From NCBI GenBank assembly GCA_019751475.1, contig JAIENH010000167.1, positions 1-14,667 on the forward strand: a stretch of DNA of 14,667 nucleotides, in the 5' to 3' direction. The translations under genes and the position numbers were made by a program. How positions within the stretch are numbered: the first letter of the stretch is position 1; each line of letters opens with the position of its first letter. Source of the stretch: Cyclobacteriaceae bacterium. GTDB lineage: Bacteria; Bacteroidota; Bacteroidia; Cytophagales; Cyclobacteriaceae. Shown here one piece after another: positions 921 through 13,199 of this stretch. The notes below the pieces were generated by a model. The model was given only the letters and a program-made list of their open reading frames with translations. It did no database searches and was not told the origin of the DNA.

Positions 921-2420
921 ATGGGTGTAGTTATTCGTCAAAGCATCACATCAACCGTGATCTCCTACGCAGGCGTGGTGATTGGTTACATCAATTTGCT
1001 ATACCTGTATCCCCGCTTCCTGGCACCCGAGCAAATTGGCACCATGCGCGCCATGCAGGATGCCGCCATCCTCATGGCACAGTTTGCCCAATTTGGACTC
1101 GCGCAAAGCATCATCCGGTTTTTTCCGCGCTTTGCAAGCACACCCACCGAATCGCGAAAGTTCTTCAACTTGGTGGTAATGCTCGCAGGTCAGGCCTTCG
1201 GAGTGTTTTTGATTCTCTATTTGATTTTTGAATCGTCCATTCTTGGCTACTTTCAGCAAAATGCCGCTGACTTTATTCAATATTCAAGACTCACACTCTA
1301 CCTCACCGCCACCACCGTGCTGGTGACACTCATGGAAGTGTACTCACGATCACTGCTCAAGACTATTGTGCCCAATCTTCTGAAAGAAATTGCGGTGCGT
1401 GTACTGCTCGGGCTTCTCAGCCTGGGCTATTTTCTGGAGTGGATTTCCTTTCAGGAACTAATGGAGCTTTCGGTGGCAGTGTACATGATTTGCCTTTTTG
1501 CTTTAGGTTGGTATTTGTACGCTCAAAATGAATTAGGTACGTCTGTCATGAAATTAAAGGAGCTGCCCAAGCCGCTGCTGCGGGAGTTTCTTCTCTTTAG
1601 CTTGCTGAGTTTTACCGGCACAGCCGGACTTATCATAATCGGCAAGGTAGACAGCCTCATGGTAGCCGGATTGCTCGGTTTGGCACCTGTAGCCGTCTAC
1701 ACTACTTCATTTTACATGGCCACAGTGATTGAGATCCCCAAGCGTGCAATGACACAAATCGCTTCGCCCCTCATTGCCCGTGGATTTGAAAAAGAAGACT
1801 GGGCGGAAGTAAAAAAAATATATCACAAGACTGCACTGCATCAATTCATACTGGGCAGTCTTTTGCTGCTGGGCATTGCTGCGAATCTTTCTTCCATTTT
1901 TGTTTTGATGCCCAAAGGAGAAATCTACGAAGCGGGCACGTGGGTGGTGATCATTGTGGGGGCAGGAAAATTGGTGGACATGCTTTTCGGCCCCAGCAGT
2001 GAGATCATTGTCTTTTCGAAATATTATTCCTTCAACATTGTACTGATTGTCATGCTTGCAGCCATGATTATCACAGCCAATAACCTGTTGATTCCATCGT
2101 ATGGCATTGAAGGTGCAGCCATTGGCACCGCGTTGACGCTGGTCGTCTTCAATCTTATCAAATTTATTTTCATTTGGTGGAAAATCCGGATTCAACCATT
2201 CTCTACAGCCTTTGTAAAAGTGGTACTGATTTCCGCTGTAGCGTGGGGCGCACAATACATTTTGCCAAGAATCGATTCGACTATCCTAGACATCATCATC
2301 CGCTCCGGGGTAATCACCGCTGTATTTGGTGCGCTGGTCTATTGGACAAACGTCTCCCCGGAAGGCAACGAGCTGGCTAGGAAGTCACTTGCCTGGCTCG
2401 GCCTTACAAAGAAATCATAG
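921..2420 (+). CDS. Polysaccharide flippase-like membrane protein (MOP superfamily, Wzx-like)
   Basis: A 499-residue integral membrane protein with about 12 to 14 hydrophobic helices, fitting the oligosaccharide flippase/polysaccharide biosynthesis branch of the MOP superfamily, whose members move lipid-linked glycans across the inner membrane. The N-terminus (GYINLLYLYPRFLAPEQIG) has the usual pattern of helix 1 followed by a loop ending in E-x-x-G. The middle segment GKVDSLMVAGLLG followed by VAVYTTSFYMA is typical of the second half of these proteins. I chose ATG at 921; the frame is open upstream to a TTG at 885, which would add 12 residues. It ends convergently with parC, overlapping by 6 bp. 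The exact glycan substrate is unknown. An exporter of another lipid-linked molecule cannot be excluded. Confidence 0.85.
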   Translation: MGVVIRQSITSTVISYAGVVIGYINLLYLYPRFLAPEQIGTMRAMQDAAILMAQFAQFGLAQSIIRFFPRFASTPTESRKFFNLVVMLAGQAFGVFLILYLIFESSILGYFQQNAADFIQYSRLTLYLTATTVLVTLMEVYSRSLLKTIVPNLLKEIAVRVLLGLLSLGYFLEWISFQELMELSVAVYMICLFALGWYLYAQNELGTSVMKLKELPKPLLREFLLFSLLSFTGTAGLIIIGKVDSLMVAGLLGLAPVAVYTTSFYMATVIEIPKRAMTQIASPLIARGFEKEDWAEVKKIYHKTALHQFILGSLLLLGIAANLSSIFVLMPKGEIYEAGTWVVIIVGAGKLVDMLFGPSSEIIVFSKYYSFNIVLIVMLAAMIITANNLLIPSYGIEGAAIGTALTLVVFNLIKFIFIWWKIRIQPFSTAFVKVVLISAVAWGAQYILPRIDSTILDIIIRSGVITAVFGALVYWTNVSPEGNELARKSLAWLGLTKKS

Positions 2421-5246
2421 TTCCAACTCAATGGTCTGACCAGCAGTAAAGACTCCCGGCTTCGGAGTAGCTTTCGGTTGCTTTACTGGTGGAGTCGGCT
2501 TGGTCTTTTTAGTAACAGGATTAGCGCTTTTTTCTGACGGGCTTTCCCCGAACAGGCTTCCCTGGCTTGCCGGCTCTGGTCGCGACTTTACCTTTTTTTC
2601 CGGGCTTTCCGCTTTTGGCGACTGGCTTTCCTGCCGGGGCTTTTCCTCTTCCAATTTTTTTTTTGGCGACTGCGGGGCCTTGTCGGCTTCAGTCACCTCT
2701 TCTTGTGCTTCGTCATCTTCCAGGCCTGAGTCTTCGGGGTCTTCCACCGGCTTCACGCGTGTCACTTTGTATTGAGACAACCGGTTGCCCATGGCCTTCC
2801 ACCCTTTCACATCAATGATGTCTTCCAAATTGACTACCTCCGCCTCCTTGTCCTTGCCTTTTCCTTTTACGATCTCTACCTCCACCTCAGGTGTATCGGC
2901 TGTAGTGACAAACTCCAATCGCGAGCCGATTGATTCGGATATAAATCCAAATTCCTTGTCGTTTGTATTGGTTTCAATTTTAAACCGTTTAACAAAATGC
3001 TGCTTGCTATCGCCATCCCAATACACAGCGGAGATCACTTTTTTAGGATTAAACTTCTCCACGAGAATAGTCTTCTCCTGCTCAAAACGTGTAGCCAGAT
3101 CATAGCCGGTAATCTTGTAGTTACCACTTTTGGTAATAGCAAGAATCTGATCGTCTCCGTCAAACTTACCAACATGCTTGCCGCGCTTCTCTTTGTTCAA
3201 TCGACCGGAGGATTCATCAAACCAAAGCTCCAATCCGCTAAGGGTTGAAACACCTGCCTGGAGCAGATCAACTCTTCGCACGGGATACTTGGTGATCGTA
3301 TTACCTCGGGCTCCGCGACCTTTCACTTCCATCTCCGAAAAATCAAACTCGAATATCTTCTTTCGAGCCGTACTACTCTGACTCAACTTCACCTCCACTA
3401 CTTCAGCTTCGCCATTAGGATTTGCCGAGAGGTAGTGTACGCGTGAATTGGGGTTGCCCTGATCGAGATTGTATTCTTTATCGCGAATGATGCCGGGCAT
3501 GGTAAACCGCTTGGCAAATGACTTACCCGACTTACCATCGCTGTAGATCATGTTGTACACCATTCGTTCATCGCCCTTTTTCCAGACACCAGCAAACAGG
3601 ATGTCTTTGCCCATAAAGACTTTTTCTGAAATACGGCTTACCAATGCCTTGCCGTCTCTGCGAATGGCAATGATATCATCCAACTCAGAGCAGTCGCAAA
3701 TGAATTCATCTTTCTTCAGGCCCCAGCCAATAAATCCATCCGCACGGTTGACATACAATTTTTGATTATTGGCAATTACCTCTACAGCCGTCACCGACTG
3801 GAAGCTCTTGATCTCCGTTCTCCGCTCGCGGCCTTTACCGTATTTATCCAAAAGGTTTTGATAAAACGAAATAGCATACTCCACCAAGTGTTTTAAATGA
3901 TGCTGAGTTTGTTTCAATTCGTCTTGCAAGGCCTTCATCAACTCATCGGCCTTGAACGAATCGTACTTTGAAATGCGCTTGATCTTTATTTCCGTCAAAC
4001 GCACTACATCGTCATCCGTGATCTCACGATAAAATTGTTTTTTGAATGGATTGAGTCCTTTATGAATAACCTTGATAACAGCCTCGAAGGTCTCGCACTC
4101 TTCAATGTTGCGGTAGATTCGGTTCTCGATAAATATTTTCTCAAGAGATGAAAACAGGATACGCTCCATCAGGTTAGCCTTCTTGATCTCAAGCTCCTTC
4201 TTCAGCAGTTCTACGGTCAAGTCAGTGTTGTACTTGAGAATTTCATTCACTTTCATGAACTGCGGCTTGTCTTCCACAATCACGCAGGCATTTGGTGAAA
4301 TGCTGATCTCACAATCCGTAAAGGCATACAAGGCATCCATGGCGATCTCTGGCGATTGCCCTGGTTGCAAGTGAATTACGATCTCTACGTCCTTGGCGGT
4401 ATTATCTACCACCTGCTTCACCTTGATCTTGCCTTTTTCACTCGCCTTCACAATCGACTCCATGAGAGACGTAGTGGTGGTGCTAAACGGAATCTCTTTA
4501 ATAACAAGAGTCTTCTTATCCACCGCCTCGATGCGGGCACGCACTTTTACTTTACCTCCACGATAGCCCTGATCGTATTCCGAAAAATCAGCAATACCAC
4601 CGGTGAAAAAGTCGGGGTAGATTTTGGGATTCTTGCCTTTCAAAACATCAATAGATGCTTTGATCAACTCACAGAAGTTGTGGGGCAGAATTTTAGTTGA
4701 AAGACCTACAGCAATACCATCCACGCCCTGTGCTAGCAGCAGTGGAAACTTTACAGGCAGTGTGATCGGTTCTTTTTTGCGTCCATCATATGACAACTGC
4801 CATTCAGTAAGGTCAGCATTGTACACGATGTCAAGCGCAAACTTAGAAAGGCGTGCTTCAATGTAACGCGGAGCAGCTGCACTGTCTCCTGTGCGCACAT
4901 CTCCCCAGTTACCCTGCGTATCCAGCAAAATATCTTTCTGGCCGATATTAACGATGGCTTCCCCAATGGCAGCATCCCCGTGAGGATGATATTGCATCGT
5001 GTTACCGATCACGTTGGCTACTTTATTGAAGCGGCCATCATCCATTTCCTTCAGCGAGTGCATGATTCTTCGCTGCACAGGTTTGAAGCCGTCTTCGATG
5101 CGGGGCACGGCCCGCTCAAGGATCACATACGATGCGTAATCGAGGAACCAGTTTTCGTACAATCCGTCAATGGAGACCAACTCGTGCGCTACTTCTTCGT
5201 TTGAATCGCTGCTTGCTTTGCGCTTGGCTGTTTTCTTTTTACTCAT
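2415..5246 (-). CDS. parC: DNA topoisomerase IV subunit A
   Basis: A 943-residue type IIA topoisomerase breakage-reunion subunit, which with ParE decatenates and relaxes DNA. The winged-helix/tower domain starts near residue 24. The catalytic arginine-tyrosine pair is R127-Y128 in AAPRYIEARL. The quinolone-pocket region reads HPHGDAAIGEA (87-97), with Ala92 and Glu96 where E. coli GyrA has Ser83 and Asp87. The C-terminal half carries the beta-pinwheel-like repeats, with GRGARGNT as a GyrA-box-like turn, so ParC rather than GyrA is the better name, also because parE is nearby. Residues about 834-943 form a charged Ser/Pro/Lys/Glu-rich, probably disordered tail ending in GQTIELEL. The start codon overlaps the stop of the small membrane gene (ATGA), which suggests translational coupling. 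Confidence 0.95.
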   Translation of the reverse strand: MSKKKTAKRKASSDSNEEVAHELVSIDGLYENWFLDYASYVILERAVPRIEDGFKPVQRRIMHSLKEMDDGRFNKVANVIGNTMQYHPHGDAAIGEAIVNIGQKDILLDTQGNWGDVRTGDSAAAPRYIEARLSKFALDIVYNADLTEWQLSYDGRKKEPITLPVKFPLLLAQGVDGIAVGLSTKILPHNFCELIKASIDVLKGKNPKIYPDFFTGGIADFSEYDQGYRGGKVKVRARIEAVDKKTLVIKEIPFSTTTTSLMESIVKASEKGKIKVKQVVDNTAKDVEIVIHLQPGQSPEIAMDALYAFTDCEISISPNACVIVEDKPQFMKVNEILKYNTDLTVELLKKELEIKKANLMERILFSSLEKIFIENRIYRNIEECETFEAVIKVIHKGLNPFKKQFYREITDDDVVRLTEIKIKRISKYDSFKADELMKALQDELKQTQHHLKHLVEYAISFYQNLLDKYGKGRERRTEIKSFQSVTAVEVIANNQKLYVNRADGFIGWGLKKDEFICDCSELDDIIAIRRDGKALVSRISEKVFMGKDILFAGVWKKGDERMVYNMIYSDGKSGKSFAKRFTMPGIIRDKEYNLDQGNPNSRVHYLSANPNGEAEVVEVKLSQSSTARKKIFEFDFSEMEVKGRGARGNTITKYPVRRVDLLQAGVSTLSGLELWFDESSGRLNKEKRGKHVGKFDGDDQILAITKSGNYKITGYDLATRFEQEKTILVEKFNPKKVISAVYWDGDSKQHFVKRFKIETNTNDKEFGFISESIGSRLEFVTTADTPEVEVEIVKGKGKDKEAEVVNLEDIIDVKGWKAMGNRLSQYKVTRVKPVEDPEDSGLEDDEAQEEVTEADKAPQSPKKKLEEEKPRQESQSPKAESPEKKVKSRPEPASQGSLFGESPSEKSANPVTKKTKPTPPVKQPKATPKPGVFTAGQTIELEL

Positions 5247-5584
5247 GAATTCAGTTCAATCAGGTTTTTGGAAATAAGGTAGTACCCAATGGCAACTAAT
5301 ATGGAAATCAGGTTGCCAATGAGAAAGAAATCATTTGAAACTTTGTCTTCCGTGTCCTTTATACGAGTGGCTATTTTTAATGCACCCAAAAAAGTAATCG
5401 ATTGTGTCATATTGAAATGAAGTGACATTACGATAAATGCCCGCTCAAGTATACCCTTAAGAATGCTGGCCCGGCTAATTTTATCCTTATTGGTTTTGCC
5501 GATAAATTTACTGATCAGAAAAAATAGGATGTGAATGACAATCTCACCTACCACGATAACACCAATGAACTGCATTAAGACCAT
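5243..5584 (-). CDS. Small membrane protein resembling the membrane half of DUF3307 proteins
   Basis: A 113-residue protein with three or four hydrophobic segments (about 5-28, 47-69, 86-105) and a basic loop near 29-43. Residues 42-76 (LKGILER, then LGALKIATRIK) and 84-104 (NDFFLIGNLIS and onwards) resemble, from memory, the C-terminal membrane part of DUF3307 proteins, which often neighbour satD. The usual N-terminal DUF3307 region is absent. ATG at 5584 overlaps satD by 10 bp. A second ATG at 5575 would give a one-base TAATG junction with the satD stop and may be the true start. Its own stop overlaps the parC start by 4 bp. Probably an inner-membrane partner of SatD; the function is unknown. 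Confidence 0.75.
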   Translation of the reverse strand: MVLMQFIGVIVVGEIVIHILFFLISKFIGKTNKDKISRASILKGILERAFIVMSLHFNMTQSITFLGALKIATRIKDTEDKVSNDFFLIGNLISILVAIGYYLISKNLIELNS

Positions 5585-6213
5585 TTCGCGGTTGGGTTTA
5601 CGATGAGTAATATCAGGCGCTTGATGTAATTACATTCATCAATCATAAGTGAGCGCCTACGCCTCCAGATGGCAGTCGGATCTTTCTTCAGCGTTTTTGC
5701 CACTTCACGATAGTCTGCTTCTGAAAGCAAATGCACCGCCACCTTGCGTTGGGCGGGTGTCCAACGGTCTACTATGCCCTGGTAGACCAGCGCACCATAG
5801 GTAAGCTTTTCAGAGATAGCTTTATTTGTTGTTGAAATAAAGAATCTCTTTTTTGAGCCCTTTAGCTCCGTTAGCTGCTTCCGTGCCTGCGTAAGCCCCG
5901 GGCCGAGCATCGCATAAGAGTTTACCCGGTTGACAACCGTATCAATTTCACCTTCGTGCAGCACATAGCGTAGCTGGAAGGGCGATTTAATACTCATCAG
6001 ATGGTGCTCAAGCGCAAACATTATTTTCAATGCCTCATACATGTTCTTTACAACACCCTGGAATTCATCGCCCAATGTGATGGTGAGGGGTGACAGGATG
6101 TTGCGCTTATGTTCTTTATTTATCGAATCTACTGCCTCCTTAAAATCATGCATCAGCGCTTTCCCCCGCTTCTTGGAACTCCCCACAATGTCGGCCATCA
6201 TGATTACTTTCAT
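5575..6213 (-). CDS. satD: SatD family protein (cyclase-like fold plus C-terminal HTH)
   Basis: A 212-residue soluble protein of the SatD family, named after the acid-tolerance sat operon of Streptococcus mutans; the biochemical role is not established. The N-terminus MKVIMMADIVGSSK (1-14) and LTITLGDEFQGV (43-54) are the hallmark motifs. Their pattern, together with QLRYVLHEGEID (80-91) and LGPGLTQARKQL (103-114), resembles the metal-binding strands and hairpin of class III nucleotide cyclases or GGDEF-type palm domains. Residues about 151-194 (ending YREVAKTL followed by TAIWRRRRSL) look like a sigma-region-4-type helix-turn-helix. It sits between parE and the small membrane gene and is preceded by three spaced palindromes, so autoregulation is likely. 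The family call is firm; the cyclase and DNA-binding readings are inference. Confidence 0.85.
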   Translation of the reverse strand: MKVIMMADIVGSSKKRGKALMHDFKEAVDSINKEHKRNILSPLTITLGDEFQGVVKNMYEALKIMFALEHHLMSIKSPFQLRYVLHEGEIDTVVNRVNSYAMLGPGLTQARKQLTELKGSKKRFFISTTNKAISEKLTYGALVYQGIVDRWTPAQRKVAVHLLSEADYREVAKTLKKDPTAIWRRRRSLMIDECNYIKRLILLIVNPTAKWS

Positions 6214-6224
6214 GGTCTTCAGTT

Positions 6225-6299
6225 ATTGCAGAAAAAATGCAATATATGAGTTATTGCAGAAATTCTGCAATAGACAAAAAATTACAGAAATTCTGCAAT
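6225..6299 (-). promoter_or_regulatory. Three 19-bp palindromes at exact 28-bp spacing upstream of satD (candidate operator)
   Basis: Three copies lie at 6225-6243, 6253-6271 and 6281-6299, each starting 28 bp after the previous one. The middle copy, ATTGCAGAAATTCTGCAAT, has perfect 9-bp arms around one central base. The right copy differs from it at one base (ATTACAG). The left copy keeps only the outer ATTGCA/TGCAAT arms around an A-rich centre. The array fills most of the 114-bp gap between parE and satD and ends 11 bp before the satD start. A weak promoter-like pair on the minus strand (TTG at 6270-6268, TATATT at 6246-6241) would overlap the middle site and lie beside the left one, fitting repression. 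SatD's own HTH is the first candidate to bind it. Confidence 0.75.
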
Positions 6300-6327: not shown

Positions 6328-8208
6328 TTACGCTTCCACAGGTGAAAATTCTTCCTTCTCTTCCACCACATCCAACTCTATGCGCAGGTTATCGATGATA
6401 AAATCCTGGCGGTCGGGCGTGTTTTTGCCCATATAAAATTCCAGGGTCTTCACCAGGTGCTTCTCCTTATCAATAAATACCGGCTGGAGGCGAATGTTCT
6501 CATTGATAAACGTACCAAACTCCTCGGGTGAAATCTCACCCAGCCCTTTGAACCGGGTGATCTCGGGCTTGCTGCCAAGCTTCTCCATCGCTTCCTGCTT
6601 TTCCTCCGGACTGTAGCAATAGATAGTTTCTTTCTTATTCCGGACACGGAACAGCGGTGTCTCTAATATATACACATGGCCTGCTTTCACCAGGTCGGGG
6701 AAGAACTGTAGAAAAAATGTCATCAGCAGCAGGCGAATGTGCATGCCGTCTACATCAGCATCCGTAGCGATAATAACTTTATTGTATCGAAGTCCATCCA
6801 GGCCATCTTCAATATTGAGTGCGTGCTGAAGCAGGTTAAACTCTTCGTTTTCATACACTACTTTCTTGGTCAAGCCAAAACAATTCAAGGGCTTACCACG
6901 CAAGCTGAAAACGGCTTGCGTCTCCACATCGCGTGACTTAGTAATAGATCCACTGGCCGAATCTCCCTCTGTTATGAAGATAACCGACTCCTTGCCTCGC
7001 TCATCTTTGCCTTCATCAAAGTGAAAACGACAGTCGCGAAGTTTGCGGTTATGAAGATTTGCTTTCTTGGCCCGCTCGTTGGCCAGCTTCTTAATACCCG
7101 CAATCTCTTTGCGCTCGCGCTCCGACTGCAAAATGCGTTTGAGCATTGCATCGGCAACAGAAGGATTTTTATGGAGGTATATCTCCAACTCCTTGGCGAC
7201 AAAATCACCCACAAAGCTTCGCACCGAAGGCCCATCCGGTGCCATATTAACAGAGCCCAGCTTGGTTTTTGTTTGCGATTCAAATACAGGTTCTTGCACA
7301 CGCACCGCGATAGCGGCCACTACACTGGCGCGAATGTCAGCGGCATCAAACTCTTTTTTATAGAAATCGCGTACAGCCTTCACCATCCCCTCGCGAAATG
7401 CGGCCAGGTGTGTACCTCCCTGGGTGGTGTTTTGTCCATTCACAAATGAGTAATATTCTTCACCGTATTGATTGCCATGGGTAAGAGCCACTTCAATGTC
7501 TTCACCCTTCAAGTGAAGAATCGGGTAGCGTATTTCTTCAGGGTCTGACTTTTGTGTCAAGAAGTCGAACAGTCCATCTTTCGAATAAAACTTCCGGCCA
7601 TTGTAGTTGATGGTAAGTCCCGCGTTGAGAAAGGCGTAATTCCACATCAAATCATCCAGGTACTCCGGGATGAAATGATAATTCTTAAACATGGAGTTAT
7701 CGGGTTCAAACTCCACGAGCGTGCCGTTGCGTTCGCTGCTCTTGCCAATCTTCGGATCGCTAGTCAAAACGCCTTTCTTGAATTCCGCCAGCTTGGTTTG
7801 TCCTTCGCGGAATGCCTGTACTTTAAAATAGTTGGAGAGCGCATTCACCGCCTTGGTACCGACCCCGTTAAGGCCTACTGATTTCTGAAAGGCCCCCGAA
7901 TCATACTTGGCCCCGGTGTTGATCTTGGAGACAACGTCCACCACCTTGCCCAGCGGGATGCCTCGACCATAGTCGCGCACTACCACCTTTTGGTCTGTGA
8001 TTTTAACATCGATGGCTTTGCCATAGCCCATCATGTGCTCGTCAATACAGTTGTCGACTACTTCTTTTACCAAAACATAGATGCCATCATCTTTGGCTGA
8101 GCCATCGCCCAACTTGCCGATGTACATGCCCGGTCGCAGCCGGATATGTTCGCGCCAGTCAAGCGATCGAATGCTTGACTCATTGTATTCTGAGGTTTCT
8201 TTTGCCAT
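6328..8208 (-). CDS. parE: DNA topoisomerase IV subunit B
   Basis: A 626-residue ATPase subunit of topoisomerase IV, the partner of ParC. The GHKL ATP site shows E49 and N53 in [17 protein letters not shown] (79-85) and [14 protein letters not shown] (112-125). The transducer loop is QTKTKLGS (312-319), with the ATP-contacting lysine at 314. The Toprim domain follows: [10 protein letters not shown] (412-421) with Glu414, and ATDADVDG (481-488) with the magnesium-binding aspartates. LRGKPLN and RFKGLGE are also conserved. The length of about 630 residues and lack of the large GyrB insertion favour ParE. ATG at 8208 is the natural start. It heads the parE-satD-membrane protein-parC order; the cassette between the two subunits is unusual. 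Confidence 0.95.
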
Positions 8209-12824: not shown

Positions 12825-13199
12825 TTATTTCTTGAGCAGATCGCGAATCTCTGTAAGCAATTGCACATCGGCTGGAGGCGGAGCCGGTGCAGCTGGTGCC
12901 GTCTCCTCTTTCTTCTTGGATGCATTCATACCTTTTACAATCAAAAAGAGTACGAAGGCAACAATGATAAAGTTGATAGTGGCACCGATGAACTTGCCGT
13001 ATTTCACAGCACCAAAGGCAGTGAGATCTTCCAGCTTACTCATTTGAGCAGCATCAAGAGCCGGCTTGAGCAGCAAGGGTGTGATCACATCATTAATCAG
13101 TGAGTTGACGATCGCGCCAAAAGCGCCCCCGATAATCACACCTATGGCCAGGTCGACCACATTGCCGCGCATGGCAAAAGCTTTGAATTCTTTTAACAT
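12825..13199 (-). CDS. mscL: Large-conductance mechanosensitive channel MscL
   Basis: A 124-residue channel subunit that forms a homopentamer in the inner membrane and opens under high tension to release solutes during osmotic downshock. The N-terminal amphipathic helix is MLKEFKAFAMRGNVVDLA. The pore helix is AIGVIIGGAFGAIVNSLINDVITP (18-41), with the small-residue pattern that lines the gate. The second helix is INFIIVAFVLFLIVKGMN (about 75-92). A linker of Ala/Pro precedes the C-terminal bundle helix PADVQLLTEIRDLLKK. The periplasmic loop is short (about 45-70). Length and all segments are normal. It is divergent from the PAS-domain sensor gene, with 97 bp between them, and is closed by a clear terminator, so it is probably a single-gene unit. 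Confidence 0.97.
   Translation of the reverse strand: MLKEFKAFAMRGNVVDLAIGVIIGGAFGAIVNSLINDVITPLLLKPALDAAQMSKLEDLTAFGAVKYGKFIGATINFIIVAFVLFLIVKGMNASKKKEETAPAAPAPPPADVQLLTEIRDLLKK

Follow-up and report, generated by a model that had tools for sequence, protein, structure and literature searches.

The three palindromes lying between parE and satD in a Cyclobacteriaceae bacterium (GenBank contig JAIENH010000167.1; the window, that is, the whole 14,667-nucleotide stretch analysed here) are best explained as an autoregulatory operator of satD that is bound by SatD and most likely represses its gene, a reading to which we assign a probability of about 0.86. We computed the array itself, its conservation at other satD genes, its fixed step, a link between its spelling and residue 184 of SatD, and its near-exclusive location at satD at up to one mismatch. 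The features concerned are:

6328..8208, minus strand, parE, the upstream neighbour
6281..6299, plus strand, palindrome 1, distal to the satD start, ATTACAGAAATTCTGCAAT, 1 mismatch
6253..6271, plus strand, palindrome 2, perfect, ATTGCAGAAATTCTGCAAT, 0 mismatches
6225..6243, plus strand, palindrome 3, proximal and most degenerate, ATTGCAGAAAAAATGCAAT, 3 mismatches
5575..6213, minus strand, satD (PF16264), 212 amino acids
5243..5584, minus strand, small conserved partner gene, hydrophobic, overlapping satD; four helices predicted
2415..5246, minus strand, parC (topoisomerase IV A), its start overlapping the stop of the partner gene

All three sites are located inside the 114-bp gap between parE and satD and follow each other at steps of exactly 28 and 28 bp. 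The original prediction had placed three 19-bp inverted repeats, one of them perfect, at starts 6225, 6253 and 6281 between these genes, and all were recovered at those coordinates, with the names and positions of the two minus-strand genes confirmed. Its step of about 2.7 helical turns computes to 2.67 turns at 10.5 bp per turn, and the most degenerate copy does sit nearest the start codon, with 11 bp between its end and the satD ATG. That the repeats and their strict periodicity are hard to obtain by chance agrees with an expectation of 0.01 for the palindromes at up to 3 mismatches in the window and with three sites in 0 of 200 shuffles. At 0-1 mismatch the 17-bp core occurs nowhere outside the array in the 3.93-Mb, 813-contig genome from which the window comes, and at up to 3 mismatches it occurs at 48 places, compared with 17 for the reversed control pattern. 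Downstream of the array, the overlaps between satD and the partner gene and between the partner gene and parC lead us to read the three as a probable operon. The essential topoisomerase gene parC thus falls downstream of the predicted satD operator (window 2415-6213).

Similar arrays were present at most other satD genes. The first relatives (L012, L052 and L053) had three sites each in other spellings, and these loci together with the window supplied the scoring motif TTKCA-N7-TGMAA with steps of 27-30 bp; the scoring was run after 80 upstreams had been inspected, with motif letters from the four earlier loci. For 75 of 78 other satD upstreams the score was at least 22 of 30, as against 2 of 345 non-satD upstreams of the same loci, and for 69 of 78 it was at least 24 of 30, as against 0 of 345 control upstreams, in a sample that comprises the best 80 of 370 relatives and leans to closer SatDs. 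This count omits 4 of 82 upstreams as motif sources or near-copies (the window, L053, L076 and L120) and keeps L126, a near-copy of the omitted L120, and near-duplicate loci (for example L095, L096, L102, L104 and L106) make the counts overstate independence. Dinucleotide shuffles reached 22 in 42 of 1560 cases and 24 in none of the 1560. The original prediction had staked itself against the absence of the repeats before satD orthologues; they were instead present at nearly all those tested (75/78). Its expectation of the same site in relatives was borne out for the position before satD, at nearly all loci, and failed for the spelling, which differs, at a step of 28 or 29. Exceptions were L067, L072 and L079, which scored below 20 (3/78 satD upstreams), the distant relative L054 (24% identical), where no array was seen by eye, a Fusobacterium relative (L171) with no array, and L160, with one site in its upstream.

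The steps of the arrays were mostly 28 or 29 bp. Inter-site distances peaked at 28 (51 cases), 29 (89), 56 (21) and 58 (43), and of the 69 best arrays 41 had steps of 29,29, 20 had 28,28 and 8 had other combinations. When steps of 18-45 bp were permitted and no motif was given, 66 of 82 upstreams had both steps at 28 or 29, as did 14 of 26 newer loci, some of them very divergent, compared with 2 of 216 two-base-block shuffles. Scoring on palindromy alone performed less well, with 55 of 82 upstreams at 15/18 or above versus 81 of 1640 shuffles, because the sites are often mixed, with for example TTTCA in one arm and TTGCA in the other. The half-sites vary among relatives (TTGCA, TTGTA, TTTCA and TTTCC) at a constant step. 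ATAAGG..CCTTAT-type arrays at 29,29 were found at divergent SatD-like genes of the same order (L163, L164, L166, L167 and L168), GTTTCC..GGAAAC sites at 29,29 at L153, and TTAGCCC..GGGCTAA-type sites at 28,28 on a Sphingomonas plasmid. Pairs at 29 were seen on the haloarchaeal plasmids L138, L169 and L170, the first two being close kin, and at L161 and L162, and weak pairs at L136 from Agrobacterium. Shuffles matched the pairs in 0 of 300 cases for Sphingomonas, 2, 1 and 3 of 300 for the three haloarchaeal plasmids, 0 and 1 of 300 for L161 and L162, and 15 of 300 for Agrobacterium, counts that flatter the match since each divergent locus had its arm and spacer lengths set after inspection. Across the sequences compared, array geometry is conserved more than sequence. 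By eye, L164 has an apparent fourth like site that lengthens its array. L138 and L169 have TTCGCC/TTCGGT palindromes with one 29-bp pair and, by eye, a second pair nearer the start codon, and their satD partner is annotated DUF3307.

The changing spelling followed the protein. In a column scan covering the 73 of 82 loci with an extended score of at least 25, the SatD column that best predicted the third base of the half-site was residue 184 (adjusted eta2 0.865), and the next-best columns, 178 and 181, are both in the putative helix-turn-helix (HTH). With Lys184, TTTCA half-sites occurred in 41 of 41 loci (2 of these 41 having mostly TTG types), and with Arg184 in 0 of 32, where TTG types alone were present; the window SatD carries R184. 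Arginine reading guanine is textbook chemistry. After addition of 13 more loci, the Lys/TTT versus Arg/TTG agreement was 86 of 86 scored loci, the labels of the 13 being assigned by hand. The 86 come from 94 loci, and by eye seven of the eight left out (L055, L067, L072, L079, L094, L107, L109 and L111) show the half-site class predicted by the residue, L079 having no array. A tree built from the N-terminal domain, leaving out the HTH, shows 14 inferred switches each for residue and operator, and independent pairs on well-supported branches were concordant in 5 of 5 cases (sign test p 0.0625). Within genus g24, TTTCA and TTGCA sites are mixed at the single Lys protein, and the five Arg relatives have TTG types only. 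The step length also changed 14 times on the tree, and a step of 29 goes mostly with Lys, a link that is not strict. This tracking of half-site spelling by a recognition-helix residue points to SatD itself as the most likely binder of the array. The original prediction had tied a protein array to the HTH of SatD, and both the arrays at orthologues and the link to residue 184 argue for this at the level of sequence. L122 and L153 combine TTTCC half-sites with Lys184, differ elsewhere in the recognition helix, and may form a third recognition class.

The SatD protein of the window matches the Pfam SatD family (PF16264) at 59.6 bits, the gathering cut-off being 29, and had no match to another Pfam family at E 0.001. 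Its structural model (mean pLDDT 93.9) has a cyclase-fold domain at about residues 1-150 and a C-terminal helical domain at about 153-205, with helices at 153-164, 168-175, 179-188 and 191-205. We read these helices in the model as a probable HTH with 179-188 as the recognition helix, in keeping with the HTH originally predicted for the gene beside the array, and residue 184 lies within this helix in a confident model. The N-terminal domain is predicted to adopt a class III nucleotidyl cyclase fold. Class III cyclases have two metal-binding aspartates, at the end of strand 1 and in the hairpin of strands 2-3; D8 and D49 of SatD are candidates for this pair, standing at the expected places in the model and being invariant in 82 of 82 sequences. 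A search of solved structures with a SatD sequence profile gave nothing credible (best E 0.055), and PADLOC models matched neither SatD nor its partner (0 families at E up to 1).

Among the best 80 of 370 relatives, 75 loci have a conserved small membrane-type protein encoded after satD. The partner protein of the window had no Pfam match above the cut-off and resembles by eye the haloarchaeal partners annotated DUF3307; its model has four helices (mean pLDDT 89.1), and Foldseek returned nothing at E 0.001 or below (best 2.7) and no functional clue. A satD match was present in 0 of 35 other genomes examined from the same genus, and among 58 genomes checked satD was found in the window's own and in one of another family. 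Congeners without satD were also without the array, and single cores at up to one mismatch occurred in 8 of 61 other genomes of the genus, never two per contig. In 27 of 29 parE loci from the same genus, no more than about 600 bp separate the end of the parE match from the parC start, and the parE and parC matches are less than 100 bp apart in the eight same-genus junctions shown. Among the other satD loci (again the best 80 of 370 relatives), 16 of 80 have satD placed between an upstream parE and a downstream parC; the parE match ends less than 150 bp before satD in 13 of these 16, and the record titles are mostly Cytophagales. In genus g24, which belongs to the window's family, satD is preceded at L053 and further loci by what looks by eye like the same parE tail. 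The satD module thus appears patchy with a recurrent place in the parE/parC operon, and loss and transfer would both fit. None of 61 viral-contig stretches that fit a peptide pattern is a SatD relative and phages gave no SatD match; on plasmids, the window SatD matched 6 records and two SatDs found there matched 4 and 7.

The array type appears largely confined to satD in the genomes searched. For the Lys-type TTTCA doublet, searched in genomes chosen from Lys-type loci (18, then 25 handles giving 24 genomes), matches at up to one mismatch were present in 22 of 24 genomes. There were 41 such places, 40 of them falling one to a genome or as two that overlap and one being a stray, compared with 0 places for the reversed control, and the 22 matches fetched, one per genome, were satD arrays in 22 of 22 cases. 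This looks like autoregulation, with no sign of a regulon that uses arrays of this type. At up to 3 mismatches the 18 genomes gave at least 116 places versus 47 for the reversed control among the matches listed, 35 of the former being at up to one mismatch; given this excess, weaker or single sites may exist elsewhere in the genomes.

From these features we infer binding, cooperativity, repression and sensing. A SatD dimer, the dimeric state being suggested by the palindromes, would occupy each 19-bp site, and three dimers at the fixed 28- or 29-bp step would touch along the DNA, a contact we propose because the step is conserved with unlike spacers. The satD-partner operon would be regulated in this way, most likely by repression of a promoter that many relatives seem to have inside the array; in the window the same transcript would continue into parC, and the cyclase-fold domain may act as a sensor that modulates DNA binding. 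Repression is favoured because 30 of 41 Lys-type arrays have a -7-like element, TANNTTTG, which we take to be the Bacteroidota -7 box, within one of their sites (29 of the 41 in site 2 or site 3), compared with 43 of 354 control upstreams that have TANNTTTG anywhere in 120 bp, a Lys-class count that is partly non-independent as the TG of TANNTTTG also belongs to the palindrome. No sigma-70-type promoter was found. Within the Arg class, to which the window belongs, such an element lies inside a site in 1 of 32 arrays, and repression there is a less secure reading drawn by analogy with the Lys class. The 31 of 32 Arg arrays that cover no such element, together with an array-to-start-codon distance that varies widely among loci, would suit a SatD-bound operator that activates or switches states through recruitment or DNA bending. 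We consider this unlikely, however, since the position of the element in site 2 or 3 of the Lys-type arrays and a third site that ends 6 bases into satD in 11 of the 69 scoring loci both fit repression better.

Still less probable, to the point of being remote, is that another regulator binds the array or that it is a structural or recombination site travelling with satD. The patchy occurrence of satD and its linkage to its array are compatible with such an origin, but the half-site tracks the SatD recognition-helix residue at all 86 scored loci through repeated switches, and loci with different neighbours retain the array at the satD start. Upstream regions are AT-rich in many relatives, and an origin of the array by chance or as a simple AT-rich repeat is nevertheless contradicted by the shuffles and the 345 control upstreams, so that we count it as refuted.

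Read as a self-bound repressor array, the operator recalls that of phage lambda, where CI acts at OR and OL as an autoregulatory HTH repressor on multiple operators. The likeness lies in three palindromic, near-evenly spaced sites over the promoter region of the regulator's own gene. Unlike in lambda CI-type arrays, the satD step stays at 28-29 bp across very distant relatives as the half-site spelling changes, and the doublet has no second target at up to one mismatch in 24 genomes, bar the one stray. PucR/CdaR-type regulators combine a GGDEF-like domain with a C-terminal HTH, and SatD resembles them in that a single chain is predicted to carry a cyclase/GGDEF-like palm domain ahead of an HTH; the Rv2242 fragment 9f80 ranked 17 in the SatD structure search, with a loose superposition (rmsd 14.1). 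Pycsar PycC (7r65, rank 7) and Panoptes OptS (9mnr, rank 38) appeared in the same search, and the likeness, with these systems as described in PMC12657218, is a small cyclase-fold protein beside a membrane-type protein. SatD differs from both in its predicted HTH and in that it and its partner lack a PADLOC match, and a word search of the main text of the Panoptes papers found neither SatD nor DUF3307. The Streptococcus SatD of the sat operon shares the name, and the comparison draws on PMC11323703 alone: the portion of that paper considered describes satD by acid tolerance and Tn-seq essentiality, reports SatD of Streptococcus pyogenes as both essential and accessory, and does not mention an operator or DNA binding. 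Among the matches listed, in which subscription literature is thinly covered and which include parts of PMC11323703 and PMC10326533, no paper treats SatD as a DNA-binding protein. Nor did any paper listed address the molecular function of SatD, and nothing on point concerned tandem operators of this kind.

If the predictions hold, SatD acquires a concrete role open to experiment: it would bind DNA to regulate its own gene, with a cyclase-like sensor, a one-residue code and an operator of fixed geometry. The relatives offer dozens of natural operator/regulator pairs in which to follow the rewiring of a recognition code under constant array geometry. More speculatively, and we regard this as doubtful in its entirety, SatD might represent a widespread class of nucleotide-sensing regulators that joins a cyclase-fold sensor and HTH to a small membrane effector and a three-dimer operator, keeps a 28-29 bp geometry from Bacteroidota to haloarchaea and is rewired in recognition at one helix position. 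Such a module may serve as a switch in cyclic-nucleotide signalling or in defence, placed in Cytophagales so that the essential parC would come under its control.

Elsewhere in the window, an ORF at 12825-13199 on the minus strand encodes a product that appears to resemble the large-conductance mechanosensitive channel MscL.
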